From the NCBI GenBank assembly GCA_009773565.1, contig WSXY01000001.1:1-64000 (forward strand): DNA of 64,000 nucleotides. The letters run 5' to 3'. The notes beneath the pieces were generated by a model, which saw nothing but the letters and a program-made list of their open reading frames with translations, made no database searches and was not told the DNA's origin. The DNA comes from Actinomycetota bacterium (GTDB lineage Bacteria; Actinomycetota; Coriobacteriia; Anaerosomatales; Anaerosomataceae). Below, piece after piece: positions 25,128 to 33,390 of the stretch; the first letter of the stretch is position 1; the number at the start of each line of letters is the position of its first letter. A program made the position numbers and the translations under genes.

Positions 25128-26501
25128 ATGACCTACCACGAGAGCATTCTGGAAGCGGTCGGAGACACGCCGCTTGTTCGCCTGGCGCGCATCGACCGCG
25201 ACCTGCCCGCAACCATCCTGGCGAAGCTTGAATTCATGAATCCTGGCGGGAGCCACAAGGACCGTATCGCCGTCGCGATGATCGACCAGGCGGAACGGTC
25301 CGGCGCGCTCGTGCCTGGAGCAACCATTGTCGAGGCCACCGCGGGCAACACCGGCGTGGGCCTCGCGATGGTCGCCGCTGTGCGCGGCTATCGCTGCGTC
25401 TTCGCTGTTCCCGACAAGATGAGCACTGAGAAGGTCGCACTCCTCAAGGCCTACGGGGCCGAGGTCGTGACGACCCGAACCGATGTGCCGCCCGACTCGC
25501 CGCTGAGCTATGACAGCGTGGCCGAGCGCCTCTTGCGCGAGATTCCCGGTTCCTGGCGGCCGCGGCAGTTCGCCAACGCCGTCAATCCCGCCACCCACTA
25601 CTCGGTCACCGGGCCGGAGATCTGGCGCCAGAGCGGCGCGCATGTGGATACCTTCGTCGCGGGCGTCGGCACGGGAGGCTCCATCTCGGGCATCGCACGC
25701 TATCTGAAGGAGCAGAACCCTAAACTCAAGGTGATCGGCGCGGACCCCATCGGCTCCATCCTGTCGGGCGGCGATGCAGGGTCGTGGAGCGTTGAAGGCA
25801 TCGGAGAGGACTACTTCCCGGACACATACGACGCCTCGGTCGTGGACCGATGGGAGCGTGTGAGTGACGCTGACTCGTTCGCCGCGGCACGTCGCCTTGC
25901 CAGGGAAGAGGGCATCCTTGCAGGCGGCTCGGCGGGCACCGCCCTGCACGCCGCGATCGAGGCGGCGAGAACCGCCGTCGAGGGAAGCGTCATCGTCGTG
26001 TTCCTGCCTGACACCGGTCGCAACTACCTGACCAAACTGCATTCGGATGAGTGGATGATGCAGCAGGACTTCTGGTCGGGCGAGACGTCGGACATCACGT
26101 GCGCCAAGGTACTCGCCCACAAGCGCGGCATGCCACCTCTCGTGTCGGTCCGCCCCGAGACACGGGCGTGCGACGTCGCGCGAATGATGACCGCCTACGG
26201 CATCTCGTATGTTCCGGTGACGGACAACGGGATGATCTTTGGTGACGTCGATGACCTTACGCTGCTCCACCTCGTGCATGGCGGTGCTGACCTGAGCGTG
26301 CTTCAGGTCAAAGACCTGATGCGACAGACGCTCCCGCTTCTCGACGAGAATGAGAGCGTGGATCGAGCCTACCGTATCCTCGGCGGGGGTCCCGCGGGAG
26401 TCATCATCACCCGAGGCGGGTATGCACTCGGCTTCCTGTCCCGATCAGACCTGATCGATTACTGGGCCGATCGTGCCCACGTCGAGGAGTTCTCGTTGTG
26501 A
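25128..26501 (+). CDS. cbs: Cystathionine beta-synthase with CBS pair
   Basis: The 457-residue PLP enzyme joins serine (or O-acetylserine) and homocysteine to cystathionine. The catalytic domain has 'NPGGSHKDR' with the PLP lysine, 'EATAGNTGVGLAMVA' and 'GVGTGGSISGIARYLK'. The last 125 residues form two CBS motifs, of which the first reads 'VSVRPETRACDVARMM'. That domain order is the one in actinobacterial and eukaryotic CBS, with the CBS pair as a possible nucleotide sensor. GGAGGT precedes ATG 25128. The stop overlaps the next start (GTGA), coupling it to the gamma-lyase/synthase. Confidence 0.92.
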   Translation: MTYHESILEAVGDTPLVRLARIDRDLPATILAKLEFMNPGGSHKDRIAVAMIDQAERSGALVPGATIVEATAGNTGVGLAMVAAVRGYRCVFAVPDKMSTEKVALLKAYGAEVVTTRTDVPPDSPLSYDSVAERLLREIPGSWRPRQFANAVNPATHYSVTGPEIWRQSGAHVDTFVAGVGTGGSISGIARYLKEQNPKLKVIGADPIGSILSGGDAGSWSVEGIGEDYFPDTYDASVVDRWERVSDADSFAAARRLAREEGILAGGSAGTALHAAIEAARTAVEGSVIVVFLPDTGRNYLTKLHSDEWMMQQDFWSGETSDITCAKVLAHKRGMPPLVSVRPETRACDVARMMTAYGISYVPVTDNGMIFGDVDDLTLLHLVHGGADLSVLQVKDLMRQTLPLLDENESVDRAYRILGGGPAGVIITRGGYALGFLSRSDLIDYWADRAHVEEFSL

Positions 26502-27646
26502 AGTTTGCGACGAGAGCCATTCACGCGGGTCAGGCAGCGGACGTCGCTACCGGCGCCACCATCGTTCCTATCTATCAGACGTCCACGTTCACGCAGTCCG
26601 CGCCCGGTGAACACAAGGGATTTGAGTACTCACGATCCGGGAATCCGACGCGTCAGGCGCTCGAGACATGCCTCGCCTCGCTTGAATCGGCGGCGCACGG
26701 TCTGGCGTTCGCCTCGGGTCTCGCGGCCGAGAACGCGGTCCTTTCCCTGCTTCGCCCCGGGGATCACGTGGTTGCCGGCGAGGATCTTTACGGCGGCACC
26801 GGAAGACTGCTGCGACAGGTCTTCGCGCCTCTGGGCATCCGCACGACGTTCGTGGACACCTCGGATGGAGCCGCCCTTTCGGCGGCCCTCGAGCCGTCCA
26901 CGCGCCTGGTTTGGGTGGAGACGCCGAGCAATCCGCTTCTGCTGGTCACGGACATCGCTTTCGCGGCGAAGGTGACCCACGACAACCGGGCGCTACTGGT
27001 GGTGGACAACACGTTCGCCACGCCGTACCTGCAGCGGCCACTCGAGCTCGGCGCGGACATCGTTGTTCACAGCACGACCAAATACGCGGGCGGTCACTCC
27101 GACGTGGTCGGCGGCGCCGTGCTCGTCGACGACCCCGGTCTGGCATCGCAACTGACCTTCTACCAGAACGCGGCCGGAGGGGTGCCCGGGCCGTTCGACT
27201 CCTGGCTCGTGCTCCGGGGCCTGAAGACACTCGCGCTCCGTATGCGCGCCCACTGCGAGAATGCCGCCTCCGTGGCGGCGTTCCTCGCCTCCAGGTCCGA
27301 AGTCGAGAGCGTGTACTACCCCGGCCTGCCGAGCCATCCGGGGCACGAGTTGGCCGGACAGCAGATGTCGGGCTTCGGCGGAATGGTCTCCCTCCGGCTC
27401 GCGGGAGGGCGCGATGCGGCTCTCCACTTTCTGCAGGCCCTCACGTACTTCTCGCTGGCCGAGAGCCTCGGCGGCGTGGAGTCGCTTGCGAGCTACCCGG
27501 CCGAGATGACACACGCATCGCTTCCCGCCGAGGACCGGGAGCGTCGGGGCATCTCGGGCGGGCTCGTGCGCCTGTCTGTGGGGGTCGAAGACATCGACGA
27601 TCTCCTCGCGGACCTCGAGCAGGCGCTGGAGGCCTCCCGTGGCTGA
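26498..27646 (+). CDS. Cystathionine gamma-lyase / gamma-synthase family PLP enzyme
   Basis: The 382-residue Cys/Met-metabolism PLP enzyme has 'YSRSGNPTR', 'FASGLAAENAVL', the 'VVDNTFATPYLQRPLELGADIVVHSTTKYAGGHSD' region with the PLP lysine after STT, and 'VRLSVGVEDIDDL' at the end. Lyases and synthases of this fold cannot be told apart reliably by eye. Translational coupling to cbs suggests reverse transsulfuration, with cystathionine cleaved to cysteine and 2-oxobutyrate. It starts at GTG 26498 overlapping the cbs stop. Confidence 0.9.
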   Translation: MKFATRAIHAGQAADVATGATIVPIYQTSTFTQSAPGEHKGFEYSRSGNPTRQALETCLASLESAAHGLAFASGLAAENAVLSLLRPGDHVVAGEDLYGGTGRLLRQVFAPLGIRTTFVDTSDGAALSAALEPSTRLVWVETPSNPLLLVTDIAFAAKVTHDNRALLVVDNTFATPYLQRPLELGADIVVHSTTKYAGGHSDVVGGAVLVDDPGLASQLTFYQNAAGGVPGPFDSWLVLRGLKTLALRMRAHCENAASVAAFLASRSEVESVYYPGLPSHPGHELAGQQMSGFGGMVSLRLAGGRDAALHFLQALTYFSLAESLGGVESLASYPAEMTHASLPAEDRERRGISGGLVRLSVGVEDIDDLLADLEQALEASRG

Positions 27647-28576: not shown

Positions 28577-29536
28577 ATGACACCTGTATCCTCCGCCGTC
28601 GACACGACCATCGGATCGACTCCGCTCATCCACCTCAACCGCCTGGCGACCGGTCTGCCGGCATCGGTGGCAGTCAAGATGGAGTCCCGCAACCCGGGCG
28701 GCTCCGTCAAGGACCGCATCGGCCTGAGCATGATCGACGACGCTGAAGAACGCGGACTCATCGAGCGCGGCCGCTCGGTGCTGATCGAGCCCACCTCGGG
28801 CAACACGGGTATAGCGCTCGCGATGATCGGCGCGGCCCGCGGCTATCGCGTCATTCTCACCATGCCCGAGTCGATGTCGATGGAGCGGCGTAAGCTGCTT
28901 GCCGCATACGGCGCCGAACTCGTGCTGACACCCCGTGCCGACGGCATGCGCGGAGCCGTCGAGGCTGCCGATAAGCTTGCTGCCGAGACCGAGAACTCGT
29001 TCATCCCCCGACAGTTCGACAACCCCGCAAACCCTCGCGTTCACTTCGAGACGACGGGGCCCGAGATACTCGAGGCGCTCGGCGACGCGAGACTCGGCGC
29101 GGTGGTGGCGGGAGTCGGAACCGGCGGAACGATCACCGGAGTCGGCCGCTATCTTCGCGAGCAGGGTTCCGATGCACTGATCGTGGCCGTGGAGCCGACC
29201 GAGTCGCCAATCATCTCGCAACGGCGGGCGGGCGAGGATCTCACCCCCGGCCCGCACGGCATCCAGGGGATCGGCGCCAACTTCATCCCGGTCGTGCTCG
29301 ACGTGGAGCTGCTGAGCGAGGTCGAACACGTGAGCGGTCCAGAGGCTATCGAGATGTCGCGCCGACTTGCGGCCGAGGAGGGACTGCTTGTGGGTATCTC
29401 CTCTGGGGCCAACGTCGCTGCGGCGCTTCGGATCGCGGCGAGACCTGATCTCGCCGGCACGACCGTCGTGACCTTCGCTCCCTCAACAGGAGAACGCTAT
29501 CTCTCAACGCCGCTCTGGGAAGGCTACGGTATCTGA
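28577..29536 (+). CDS. cysK: Cysteine synthase (O-acetylserine sulfhydrylase)
   Basis: The 319-residue enzyme makes cysteine from O-acetylserine and sulfide. It has 'ESRNPGGSVKDRIG' with the PLP lysine (about residue 44), the substrate loop 'PTSGNTGIALAM', 'GVGTGGTITGVGRYL' and 'GISSGANVAAAL' for PLP phosphate binding. GAAGGAGG precedes the ATG. It is followed one base later by an Rrf2-type regulator, the pairing known for CymR-CysK control. Confidence 0.93.
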   Translation: MTPVSSAVDTTIGSTPLIHLNRLATGLPASVAVKMESRNPGGSVKDRIGLSMIDDAEERGLIERGRSVLIEPTSGNTGIALAMIGAARGYRVILTMPESMSMERRKLLAAYGAELVLTPRADGMRGAVEAADKLAAETENSFIPRQFDNPANPRVHFETTGPEILEALGDARLGAVVAGVGTGGTITGVGRYLREQGSDALIVAVEPTESPIISQRRAGEDLTPGPHGIQGIGANFIPVVLDVELLSEVEHVSGPEAIEMSRRLAAEEGLLVGISSGANVAAALRIAARPDLAGTTVVTFAPSTGERYLSTPLWEGYGI

Positions 29537-29537
29537 C

Positions 29538-29954
29538 ATGCGCGTCTCACAGCGCCTCGACTACACGCTCAAGATGCTCGTTGCCCTTGCGCGACTCCCT
29601 CACGGTGTGACGACAGCGTCGGGCGACCTTGCAGTGCGACTCGGCTTGCCGAGGCGCTTCGGCGAGCAGCAGATGACGGCACTGGCGAAGACCGGGCTTG
29701 TCGAGTCTCGACGCGGCACCGGGGGCGGCGTATCCCTCTCCCGGCCCGCGTCGGAGATCACCGTGCTCGACGTGGTGAAGGCCATCCAGGGCGAGGTGCT
29801 TGATGTGCCGAAAGCGACCGGGTCTGCCACCGCAGAGTTCTGGAGCCGGGCAGCCGGCGCGCTTGAGGAGCAACTGGGCTCCACGACGCTCACGGATCTC
29901 GTTCGGCGCCAGGCCGAACTCGATGCGGCGGCGGGGCCGATGTACTTCATCTAG
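29538..29954 (+). CDS. Rrf2-family regulator without cluster cysteines (CymR-like)
   Basis: The 138-residue winged-helix protein begins MRVSQRLDYTLKMLVALARL. It shows the Rrf2 recognition-helix pattern 'LAVRLGLPRRFGEQQMTALAKTGLVESRRGTGGGVSLSRP'. There are no cysteines, so it cannot bind an Fe-S cluster like the regulator at 9648. Its immediate position after cysK fits the CymR model, in which CysK signals cysteine supply by binding the regulator. That assignment is inference from context. It probably controls the cysteine and methionine operons around it. Confidence 0.82.
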   Translation: MRVSQRLDYTLKMLVALARLPHGVTTASGDLAVRLGLPRRFGEQQMTALAKTGLVESRRGTGGGVSLSRPASEITVLDVVKAIQGEVLDVPKATGSATAEFWSRAAGALEEQLGSTTLTDLVRRQAELDAAAGPMYFI

Positions 29955-30055
29955 CATGATTCCGGTGCGATTGAGGCGCTGGACGAACGCCTCCCGCCCT
30001 GTTAACGTACCGCTCCATATCCGTTCGACGTGAGAAGGAGGTGAAACGAGGCACC

Positions 30056-30160
30056 ATGGCACGTTCTGTGTTCGTTATGGCGATGGACATGATGATGACC
30101 TGGCCCGGGTCTGCGCTCGCATGCGCAGGAACCGGGCGGCTCCCGCACCTCGCTCGCTAG
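30056..30160 (+). CDS. Methionine-rich 34-residue leader peptide
   Basis: This short frame starts at ATG 30056. A perfect AGGAGGTG ribosome site (30036-30043) is 12 bases upstream, and a second CGAGG is closer. It encodes MARSVFVMAMDMMMTW and 18 more residues. Six of its first 13 codons are ATG, including three in a row at 30089-30097. It stops at TAG 30158-30160, 52 bases before the probable metY start. Two strong hairpins overlap its 3' part. This is the architecture of a translated leader for amino-acid attenuation: shortage of charged Met-tRNA would stall ribosomes at the Met run. The regulatory role is inference, while the frame and codon run are direct. Confidence 0.6.
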   Translation: MARSVFVMAMDMMMTWPGSALACAGTGRLPHLAR

Positions 30161-30168
30161 CAGCGAGG
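30103..30168 (+). promoter_or_regulatory. Candidate attenuator hairpins in the metY leader
   Basis: Hairpin 1 pairs GCCCGG (30103-30108) with CCGGGC (30132-30137) and CTGCGC (30111-30116) with GCGCAG (30123-30128) around a 6-base loop. It begins six bases after the last Met codon of the leader peptide. Hairpin 2 pairs CCTCGCT (30148-30154) with AGCGAGG (30162-30168) across the leader stop codon, and it covers a potential ribosome site for ATG 30174. A ribosome stalled on the Met codons would not reach hairpin 1, whereas one at the stop would melt hairpin 2. No U-tract follows, so control of translation or Rho access is as likely as intrinsic termination. Confidence 0.45.
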
Positions 30169-30212
30169 GAATCATGTACGCACCTCAACACGACACAGAA
30201 ACGAGGAACACC

Positions 30213-31511
30213 ATGACCGCTTCGTCTCGCCGCTTCGATACCGTCGCCGTTCACGGCGGCGCCACCGCGGATCCCACCACCGGCTCGCGCGCCGTGCCGA
30301 TCTACCAGACGGTTGCCTACAACTTCCAGGACGCCGATCATGCCGCGGACCTCTTCGGCCTTCGCGCCTTCGGCAACATCTACTCTCGCATCATGAACCC
30401 GACCAACGATGTGCTCGAGCAGCGCGTAGCGGGCCTGCGTGGCGGGACCACCGCGGTCGCCGTCGCGTCCGGTCACGCCGCGGAGGTCCTCAGCCTTCTG
30501 AACGTGGCGGGCGCCGGAGACAGCATCATCTCCTCCACGTCGCTCTACGGCGGGACCTGGAACATCTTCCTGCACACGTTTCGACGCCTCGGCATCGAGG
30601 TCCGCTTCGTCGAGACCACCGATACCGAGGGATTCGCCGCCGCCTCAGACGGCACCACGAAGGCGTGGTTCGTCGAGACGATCGGCAACCCGCGGCTGGA
30701 CGTGCCCGATATCGGCGGCCTCGCTGATGCGGGTCGCGCCCTCGGGATCCCGCTGTTCGTGGACAACACGTTCGCGACCCCCTATCTCTCGCGGCCGATC
30801 GAGCACGGGGCGGCAGTGGTGATCGAGTCGCTCACGAAGTGGCTCGGCGGACACGGCACCTCGATCGGCGGCATCCTCGTCGATGGCGGAAACTTCGACT
30901 GGGGCACCGGTCGCCACCCCTTCTTCACCGAGCCGGACGAGAGCTACCACGGCCTCAAGTTCTGGGACGTCTTCGGCGACTTCCCGGGCCTCGGCAACGT
31001 GGCCTTCGGGATTCGCGCACGCGTCAACCTGCTTCGCGACTTCGGCCCGGCACTCTCCCCGTTCAACGCGCAGCAGTTCCTCCTCGGCGTTGAAACGCTC
31101 TCACTTCGCGTCCAGCGGCATAGCGATAACGCGCTCGCCGTGGCGAAGCATCTCGAGGCCCACCCGAAGGTTGCATGGGTGGCGTACCCGGGCCTCGATT
31201 CGCACCCGACAAAGGCCAACGCTGACAGGTACCTCGAGAACGGCTACGGCGGCGTGGTCATCTTCGGCGTGAAGGGCGGACTCGAGGCGGGCAAGACGCT
31301 CATCAACAGCGTCGAGCTTTTCAGCCACCTTGCAAACGTCGGCGACGCGAAGTCGCTCATCATCCATCCCGCATCGACCACGCACTCCCAGCTGTCCGCG
31401 CAGGAACTCGTTCGCGCCGGCATCAGCGAAGACTTCGTCCGCTTGTCCGTGGGGATCGAGAACATCGACGACATCATCGCGGATCTCGATCGAGCTCTCG
31501 AGGCGGTGTAG
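30213..31511 (+). CDS. metY: O-acetylhomoserine sulfhydrylase
   Basis: The 432-residue PLP enzyme makes homocysteine (or methionine) from O-acetylhomoserine and sulfide (or methanethiol). It has 'RFDTVAVHGGATADPTTG', 'YSRIMNPTNDVLEQRVA', 'SGHAAEVLSLL', 'SSTSLYGGTWNIF', 'VDNTFATPYLSRPIEHGA' and 'ESLTKWLGGHGTSIGG' with the PLP lysine. The inserted segment after 'GGHG' and the length are typical of MetY and not of gamma-lyases. ATG 30213 places the FDT motif at the usual distance; ATG 30174 is an alternative whose ribosome site lies in hairpin 2. metX follows two bases after the stop. Confidence 0.93.
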   Translation: MTASSRRFDTVAVHGGATADPTTGSRAVPIYQTVAYNFQDADHAADLFGLRAFGNIYSRIMNPTNDVLEQRVAGLRGGTTAVAVASGHAAEVLSLLNVAGAGDSIISSTSLYGGTWNIFLHTFRRLGIEVRFVETTDTEGFAAASDGTTKAWFVETIGNPRLDVPDIGGLADAGRALGIPLFVDNTFATPYLSRPIEHGAAVVIESLTKWLGGHGTSIGGILVDGGNFDWGTGRHPFFTEPDESYHGLKFWDVFGDFPGLGNVAFGIRARVNLLRDFGPALSPFNAQQFLLGVETLSLRVQRHSDNALAVAKHLEAHPKVAWVAYPGLDSHPTKANADRYLENGYGGVVIFGVKGGLEAGKTLINSVELFSHLANVGDAKSLIIHPASTTHSQLSAQELVRAGISEDFVRLSVGIENIDDIIADLDRALEAV

Positions 31512-31513
31512 CC

Positions 31514-32677
31514 GTGCTGGATCCGAGGACCAACGTGCCGCCAGAAGGTGCCCTCGTGGCAACGCTCGAGGGAGAGCTCGACTTGGCTTCCGGCAGGCGC
31601 CTGACGAGTGTCGAGGTCGCCTATGAGACGTTCGGGCGGCTTTCCGCCGACGGCAGCAATGCGGTACTCGTGTGCCACGCCCTTTCCGGCGACTCCCACG
31701 TCACCAGCGGTGACGTGGGAGTCAGCCCCGGCTGGTGGGAGCCGATGGTCGGCCCCGGCAGGGCGCTCGACACCGACAGGCTGTTTGTCATCTGCAGCAA
31801 CGTCCTGGGCGGATGCTCCGGGACCACCGGGCCGGGATCGACCGACCCGGATACAGGCGTGCCGTACGGGAGCGCATTTCCCTTCGTCACCATCGAAGAC
31901 ATGGTCGAAGTGCAGCGTCGCCTGCTCGATCACCTCGGTATTGTCAGACTTGCGGCGGTCGTGGGTGGCTCCATGGGAGGCATGCAGGCATTGGCCTGGG
32001 CTAAGCACCACCCGGAACGTGTGACGGCGGTCGTCGCCGACGCCACGACGCCACGCCTTGGCGCCCAGCCGATCGCGTTCAACGTGGTAGGGCGGCGCGC
32101 CATCCTGGACGACCCGGCATTCGCAGGCGGCGACTACTACCAGTCTGACAGCCAACCCGATGCCGGGCTCTCGATAGCCCGCATGGTCGGCCACATCACG
32201 TACCTGTCGAATGAGTCCATGCATGAGAAGTTCGGGCGGCGACTCCGTGAAGGCATCGAGTACGCCTATGACTTCGTGAATGAGTTCGAGGTCGAGACGT
32301 ACCTGGCGCATCAGGGCCGGCGCTTCACGGAGCGCTTCGATGCGAACACCTACCTGCTGATGACAAAGGCGATGGACTACTTCGACCTTCGTGGAGAATC
32401 GGAGACACTCGCCGAGGCCGTTCGTGGAACGCCCGACCGCTGGCTGGTCACCTCGTTCTCCAGCGACTGGCTGTTCAGCACCGACCAGGCCCGCGATCTC
32501 GCGATCGCTCTGCTGGCGGCCGACAAGCAGGTCACCTTCGCTGAGTTCGAGAGTCCCTACGGCCACGATGCCTTCCTGCTCGAGGTGGAACAACAGACAT
32601 CCCTGCTGCGGCCGTTCCTGGAGAACTCCGTACGTGCCTGCGCTGAGTCCCTGAGACGAAAGGAGGACGCGGCATGA
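31514..32677 (+). CDS. metX: Homoserine O-acetyltransferase
   Basis: The 387-residue alpha/beta hydrolase activates homoserine for MetY. It has 'VAYETFGRL', 'VCHALSGDSHV', the nucleophile in GGSMGGMQALAW (Ser153), the Asp region 'SFSSDWLFS' and the catalytic His in 'SPYGHDAFLLE'. Whether it uses acetyl- or succinyl-CoA cannot be certain from the sequence alone; pairing with MetY suggests acetyl. It starts at GTG 31514 and overlaps metW by four bases, a widely conserved metX-metW arrangement. Confidence 0.93.
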   Translation: MLDPRTNVPPEGALVATLEGELDLASGRRLTSVEVAYETFGRLSADGSNAVLVCHALSGDSHVTSGDVGVSPGWWEPMVGPGRALDTDRLFVICSNVLGGCSGTTGPGSTDPDTGVPYGSAFPFVTIEDMVEVQRRLLDHLGIVRLAAVVGGSMGGMQALAWAKHHPERVTAVVADATTPRLGAQPIAFNVVGRRAILDDPAFAGGDYYQSDSQPDAGLSIARMVGHITYLSNESMHEKFGRRLREGIEYAYDFVNEFEVETYLAHQGRRFTERFDANTYLLMTKAMDYFDLRGESETLAEAVRGTPDRWLVTSFSSDWLFSTDQARDLAIALLAADKQVTFAEFESPYGHDAFLLEVEQQTSLLRPFLENSVRACAESLRRKEDAA

Positions 32678-33390
32678 CGGCTGCTGAACTCCGCCGAAGG
32701 GACCTGGCTCGCATTGCGGACCTGGTACCCCGCGGCTCGCGAGTCCTCGACCTGGGCTGCGGCGACGGGACACTCCTCGCGTTGCTCCGTGACACGCGCG
32801 AGGCTGACGTGCATGGCGTGGAGCTCGACCTTGCGAACGTCGCCGAGTGCGTGCGCCGCGATATCCCCGTAGTGCAGTTCGACATCGACGAGGGGCTGCC
32901 CGACTTCGCCGACGGCTCCTTCGACATCGTCGTCCTGTCGCAGACGCTTCAGGTGGTGCGCAGGCCCGCGCTCGTGCTCCGTGAGATGCTACGTGTGGGC
33001 AAGCGCGGCATCGTTTCATTCCCGAACTTCGGCCACTGGAAGGCGCGCGCGTACCTCACCTTCCGCGGGCGTATGCCGATGTCCCGATCCATCCCCTATT
33101 CATGGTATGACACGCCCAACATCCACCTCACCACGCTGAAGGACTTCCGAGCCTTCGTGGCCGCCAACGGCGGACACATCGAACAGGAGTTGCCGCTCGC
33201 AACGTCGAGAGGCGGGCATCAGCACGAGGTGGCCCTGTGGCCGAACCTCTTCGCCGATACGGGCGTCGCGGTCGTGTGCGCGGGCGCACCCGCACCGCGA
33301 ACGGCCGTGCGCGGGACCTCGCAGGCCACGTGCTGCGGATACGACGTTGACCGGGCGCGACGCACCTACGAGCACGGCTCGCATCGTTAG
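32674..33390 (+). CDS. metW: MetW-like methyltransferase-fold protein
   Basis: The 238-residue protein has 'IADLVPRGSRVLDLGCGDGTLLALL' (SAM-binding motif I), 'VHGVELD', 'FDIVVLSQTLQVVRRP' and the MetW signature 'VSFPNFGHWKARAYLTFRGRMPMS' with 'YSWYDTPNIHLTT'. MetW stabilises or activates MetX in several bacteria. The last 40 residues are extra to the family core. An AAAGGAGG ribosome site lies within metX. Confidence 0.9.
   Translation: MTAAELRRRDLARIADLVPRGSRVLDLGCGDGTLLALLRDTREADVHGVELDLANVAECVRRDIPVVQFDIDEGLPDFADGSFDIVVLSQTLQVVRRPALVLREMLRVGKRGIVSFPNFGHWKARAYLTFRGRMPMSRSIPYSWYDTPNIHLTTLKDFRAFVAANGGHIEQELPLATSRGGHQHEVALWPNLFADTGVAVVCAGAPAPRTAVRGTSQATCCGYDVDRARRTYEHGSHR

Follow-up and report, generated by a model that had tools for sequence, protein, structure and literature searches.

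A methionine-rich leader upstream of metYXW and its homologue before metN: a probable methionine-sensing attenuator in Coriobacteriia

The genes metY, metX and metW of an Actinomycetota bacterium are preceded by a short open reading frame rich in methionine codons, and the question is whether this frame senses methionine through its codons and controls the genes behind it. The window, which means here the whole stretch of 64,000 nt that was analysed, carries the frame of 34 codons at 30056-30160 upstream of metY-metX-metW as the original prediction had claimed, and the three gene identities were borne out by NCBIfam (Table 1). The element is most probably a methionine-sensing, ribosome-mediated attenuator, for which we estimate a probability of about 0.8 from comparison of sequences. 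We read it as attenuation because the frame, its Met run, hairpin 1 (H1) and the position of the leader stop codon in a hairpin are conserved, and because a homologous leader was found before metN.

The leader frame and its neighbourhood

Read directly from the sequence, the leader frame starts with ATG at 30056 and ends with TAG at 30158-30160. Six ATG codons had been predicted among its first 13 codons; the number is correct, but the codons are numbers 1, 8, 10, 12, 13, and 14, and so fall within the first 14. No other stretch has at least five Met in eight residues when the 64 kb are read in six frames. The frame at 30056-30160, rich in Met, is a real feature and did not arise by chance. 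The strong ribosome site of the prediction is also present, with AGGAGGTG located at 30036-30043 and GGAGG in 36/36 homologues, but the gap of 14 nt between GGAGG and ATG is long for a normal site, and yet it is conserved (13-16 nt in 36/36). A similar TGcTAACGT was seen in close relatives at the candidate -10 box. Both predicted hairpins were recognized, the second (H2) at the end of the frame, but the supposed overlap with the metY initiation region was not, as the 3' end of H2 is about 45 nt before the metY ATG (30213).

Table 1. Features of the metYXW leader region in the window
Feature	Position	Strand	Remark
Rrf2/CymR-like regulator gene	29538-29954		directly 5' of the leader, which sits between the regulator gene and metY
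Candidate -10 box TAACGT within TGTTAACGT	30003..30008	+	weak; about 48 nt 5' of leader ATG
Strong anti-SD-complementary site AAGGAGGTG of the leader frame	30035..30043	+	GGAGG core in 36/36 homologues
Leader frame, 34 codons, MARSVFVMAMDMMMTWPGSALACAGTGRLPHLAR and stop	30056..30160	+	in frame and open in 36/36 homologues
Methionine-codon sensor region M-A-M-D-M-M-M	30077..30097	+	last Met codon 30095-30097 invariant
Hairpin 1 (H1), GCCCGG ... CCGGGC	30103..30137	+	starts 5 nt after last Met codon, inside leader frame
Hairpin 2 (H2), CCTCGCTCGCTAGCAGCGAGG	30148..30168	+	leader stop codon TAG in loop
metY, O-acetylhomoserine sulfhydrylase, putative regulated gene	30213..31511	+	NCBIfam TIGR01326 above cut-off, E 4.8e-192
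metX, homoserine O-acetyltransferase	31514..32677	+	NCBIfam NF001209 above cut-off
metW	32674..33390	+	NCBIfam TIGR02081 above cut-off

Immediately 5' of the leader, a cysK gene and the CymR/Rrf2-like regulator gene occupy positions 28577-29954. With these neighbours, a DNA-binding repressor may put the metYXW operon under sulphur control as well. At 26501-27634, upstream on the same strand, is a gene for a further PLP sulphydrylase or cystathionine-synthase-like enzyme, with about 43% identity to metY. The genome of the window has also a second metY-metX operon (G000:C14:118200-121500, L111), with metY about 80% identical and with its own copy of the leader, MAPNVFVMMMDMMMTPPGSMRVCADSGRLRLPAGQ.

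Conservation of the metY leader and a homologous leader before metN

With MetY as bait, upstream regions of well-matching metY genes were compared within the same order. The set comprises 36 distinct leaders, including those of both metY copies of the window's genome, one of which is the leader in the window, and the Met-rich frame is carried by all 36 upstream regions. A single more distant metY of the class was examined (L021, 70% identity), and it is without the leader frame. In 36/36 leaders, the first ATG past GGAGG shares its reading frame with the Met run. The distance from this ATG to CCC is 45, 48, or 51 nt, always a multiple of three (36/36), and the length therefore changes by whole codons only. 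Four to six Met, 5.5 on average, are present within the 10 codons before CCC-GGG in each of the 36 leaders, and the last Met codon is invariant (36/36). Residues near it vary (D/E/A/G; M/A/T/V; M/L), and a few relatives have one codon more or fewer in the Met region. Judged from the alignment, this pattern is what a codon sensor would need, and less than a defined peptide would need. The hairpin-coding part mostly has a single Cys, which is not invariant.

H1 begins 5 nt past the last Met codon in the metY leaders, and its proximal stem is kept in 36/36 of them, with G-C/G-U changes only, while the distal stem occurs in several sequences and registers with pairing always retained. Synonymous recodings of the peptide give a less stable hairpin than the native H1 (z of -2.6 for H1 of the window), and this holds for every one of the 36 homologues, with z from -1.5 to -4.4 and a mean of -2.7. 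In leader L020, the frame ends right after PGS and H1 is still present; because H1 persists there although the frame stops, it is selected as RNA. H1 is constrained at the RNA level beyond its codons. A hairpin at the position of H2 is present in all 36 metY leaders, and hairpins of this region were better than dinucleotide shuffles in 35 of them (mean z of -1.8). RNAalifold recognized in the metY alignment mostly trivial start-codon pairs and the proximal H1. The leader stop codon is within the H2 loop in 29/36 leaders, that of the window included; H2 would therefore be excluded by a ribosome at the stop, but not by one stalled on the Met run. The check in relatives proposed with the original prediction thus came out in its favour, as frame, Met run, H1, and stop-in-hairpin layout are kept in 36 distinct metY leaders.

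Covariance model R1 was built from the metY leader core and searched in 398 genomes of the class. It found metY leaders at E below 1e-17 and weaker matches in other orders of the class. Of the strongest matches, 30 were fetched, and all of them adjoin metY. Weaker matches outside coding sequence are directly upstream of a gene with MetN, the methionine ABC importer ATPase, as the best NCBIfam match (TIGR02314, E about 1e-90). This match is below the curated cut-off because the proteins align to no more than about the first 240 of the 343 model positions. One metN leader (L158) belongs to the family of the window, and the covariance-model search found none in the genome of the window itself. 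Weak model matches in that genome and in other classes were discarded, as they are inside coding sequence.

The metN leader peptide reads MFTTAAHITMMMVMEMPSPGHF... (core MMMVMEMPSPG) and has the same H1 as the metY leader. Neither the last Met nor the Pro after it varies among the metN leaders (44/44), the frames are in frame in 44/44 with triplet-only length changes (44/44), and a mean of 5.0 Met is present in the 10 codons before CCC-GGG. The GCCCGG/CCGGGC core of H1 is invariant in the aligned metN leaders, and in both families (36/36 and 44/44) the last Met codon is followed by H1 at a fixed distance. A Shine-Dalgarno site precedes the frame in 0/44 metN leaders, and the end of a TANNNT box is 7 nt upstream of ATG in 34/44 (loci L144-L211), and therefore the metN leader frame is probably leaderless. 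The start signals of the two families thus differ, as metY leaders have the strong but unusually distant GGAGG (13-16 nt).

Model R2, built from the metN-leader family, recovers metY leaders (E values as low as 4e-13) and brings in a more divergent set, so that R1 and R2 find each other's families. All 20 examined members of the divergent set are upstream of metN; they have the core MPKPG and fewer Met, as few as two near H1. In phylum samples of 396 and 296 genomes there were few matches outside the class, those examined were in coding sequence, and no true leader match outside the class was found in these genomes. The metY and metN leaders are homologous and most likely represent one attenuator family on methionine synthesis and uptake genes.

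A helix follows H1 in the metN leaders (alignment A3, columns 87-96 with 101-110). Compensatory changes were found in 9 of its 10 pairs, 96% of cells are paired, and 0/500 shuffles were as good. The leader stop codon abuts the 5' strand of this helix in 35/42 leaders. A shorter GC hairpin using the 3' strand of the helix is present in nearly all metN leaders, often with a U-rich tail, for example GGCGGG-AGTCAG-CCCGCC-TTCTTCC or GCGGGGGATAGCCCGC-CTTCTTTT. This overlapping terminator hairpin is only modestly better than shuffles (mean z of 0.9), and the mean U score is 1.6 in metY leaders versus 2.6 in metN leaders. The textbook 2:3 antiterminator, in which the 3' arm of H1 would pair locally with the 5' strand of the helix in metN leaders, was also considered and rejected, as it has no covariation support (79/500 shuffles as good).

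Putative mechanism and alternative explanations

The layout of ribosome-mediated attenuation on Met codons, as originally proposed, gains support from the 36/36 metY leaders and from the homologous metN leader. RNA polymerase would transcribe the leader, and a ribosome would start on the short frame behind it. With ample charged elongator Met-tRNA, the ribosome would pass the Met codons and reach the leader stop codon, where it would cover H2 (in metY leaders) or the 5' strand of the corresponding helix (in metN leaders). The covered helix would be the ON-state structure, and with its loss the OFF state would form, which in many metN leaders could be the short GC hairpin with U-rich tail acting as an intrinsic terminator. 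When Met-tRNA is scarce, the ribosome would stall on the Met run, its leading edge would cover the 5' arm of H1, and H1 would stay open; the downstream ON helix would then form undisturbed, and metYXW or metN would be expressed. H1 may serve as an anti-antiterminator or as a polymerase pause. Its role is deduced indirectly because local pairing of its 3' arm with the next strand was not supported. In some metN leaders, a stalled ribosome could instead free the 3' arm of H1 to extend the helix toward the U tract, which would reverse the logic.

Several properties agree with this scheme. A short leader frame with start signals (GGAGG in metY, near-leaderless in metN) is present in 36/36 and 44/44 leaders, and the codon run matches the end product of the operon, the downstream genes serving methionine synthesis or import. 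Judging from position, H1 is in reach of a stalled ribosome, and the ON helix, with the stop codon at its foot or in its loop, lies where the position of the ribosome would decide on its formation. The Met-codon sensor and its conservation can be read in the leaders themselves; for the switching we infer translation, stalling, folding order, and termination, and this step is well supported for metN. On a broader scale, it seems rather probable that Met-codon attenuators are class-wide, ancestral to Coriobacteriia, and coordinate metYXW and metN via elongator Met-tRNA, although every protein also needs methionine for its start, and that in the leaderless metN branch a single site reads both initiation and elongation on Met codons.

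The OFF step of the metY family could be Rho-dependent termination, a U-poor terminator, or translational control. A scan for terminator-like hairpins found no consistent U-tailed terminator in metY leaders and no U tract after H2. The stretch before metY is only mildly C-rich and G-poor, or rut-like (C 0.32 vs. G 0.26), and because this excess of C is mild, Rho is only a possibility there. It is also conceivable, as a tentative variant that does not exclude the attenuator, that the same Met-codon leader of the metY family acts mainly on translation or RNA decay and not on transcription termination. Such a variant would suit leaders without a U-tailed terminator, and intrinsic terminators are scarce in Actinobacteria (PMC2965389, PMC1262725), where mycobacterial Cys leaders were described as translational (PMC13236596, PMC9031893). 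However, when the leaders were folded with H1 either free or covered by a ribosome, pairing of the metY ribosome site showed no consistent change (mean of 0.54 versus 0.54), and some 40-60 nt usually separate the leader stop from metY, so that stop-start coupling is not expected.

Other explanations part from codon sensing altogether. The conserved M-T/P-x-P-G could stall the ribosome as a nascent peptide, perhaps sensing methionine or SAM and not empty Met codons. The last Met and PG are indeed nearly invariant, the residue after this Met is Pro in 44/44 metN leaders and Thr in 35/36 metY leaders, and the divergent metN leaders lose Met density but keep MPKPG. Against this, RNA pairing accounts for PG, since these codons form the 5' strand of H1, and the divergent leader L242 has PE with a matching change in the H1 strand. 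Moreover, the residue after the last Met is not the same in the two families, and the Met codons are retained as a cluster with shifting positions. Arrest by the peptide is thus unlikely. We regard as very unlikely a metabolite-binding riboswitch for SAM or methionine that overlaps the short frame by chance, although SAM riboswitches are a common solution for methionine genes and the RNA-level constraint on H1 with its invariant GCCCGG/CCGGGC core would fit an aptamer. No match to Rfam, including all SAM classes, speaks for it: at gathering score, neither the window nor nine leader loci matched a SAM, SAH, or other riboswitch or a T-box, and a relaxed-threshold scan of the leader gave a chance match only. 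The most conserved bases outside H1 are codons of one frame, the triplet-only length changes (36/36 and 44/44) would be needless for an aptamer, and the distal H1 stem and H2 are free to vary in sequence. The least probable explanation is a functional small Met-rich protein next to metY, for example a metal-binding one, and not a regulator. The frame looks translated and is conserved, but its C-terminal half is dictated by the sequence of the hairpins, and relatives have lost this half but kept the RNA structure, with L020 stopping directly after PGS and L018 and L101 soon after.

Relation to known leaders

Leader-peptide attenuation is textbook knowledge for Trp, His, Leu, Ile/Val, Thr, and Phe, and is known also for Cys. 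What would be new here, as the sequences suggest, is that the amino acid sensed is methionine and that the leaders precede two methionine operons throughout one class. No methionine leader peptide or attenuator was found in the open full-text literature, a coverage that leaves subscription papers outside. Surveying Actinobacteria, Seliverstov and colleagues found no conserved RNA structure in front of methionine operons, and the Cys leaders that they described had no terminators (PMC1262725).

The leader of M. tuberculosis ilvB1NC (PMC13236596) is similar in having an upstream ORF with regulatory codons, where a ribosome at the stop masks the antiterminator and the terminator forms, while a stalled ribosome lets the antiterminator form. 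It differs in sensing branched-chain amino acids and in its demonstrated intrinsic U-tract terminator; here the codons are Met and the metY family is without a U-tailed terminator. The three-hairpin attenuator of C. glutamicum ilvBNC and the ilvB-II motif (PMC11857589, PMC10272879) consist of antiantiterminator, antiterminator, and terminator with an overlapping upstream ORF, and H1, the ON helix, and the overlapping hairpin of the metN leader map onto these three hairpins. That system has branched-chain codons and is known from one operon of one genus, whereas here it is methionine, two operons, and one class. The polycysteine leaderless upstream ORFs of mycobacterial cys operons (PMC9031893, PMC13236596, PMC1262725) also sense a sulphur amino acid by a codon run, and their leaderless start resembles that of the metN leaders. 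They have Cys codons near the stop, no conserved hairpin, and translational control, unlike the Met codons and conserved hairpins described here; a Cys run of this type near the leader stop was not found, the run being of Met. S-box/SAM riboswitches and Met T-boxes control the same genes elsewhere, while here, with no Rfam match, the sensing part is a codon run in a frame.

Methionine is a hard case for attenuation, as starvation limits initiation too. A conserved Met sensor on synthesis and uptake genes is a directly testable system, and annotators could name many unannotated short frames in one bacterial class.

Outside the phylum, Bacteroidota metY homologues (L037, L041, L048, and L049) have unrelated Cys/Met-rich short frames upstream (for example MCCCCMMM, MCCFMC, or CCC near the end), which are possibly separate Cys/Met leader peptides. 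In Omnitrophota (L026), a short Met-rich frame MCFRKYVMMVGMDMW was found 5' of a metY homologue, and it may be there by chance or represent a third, independent leader.
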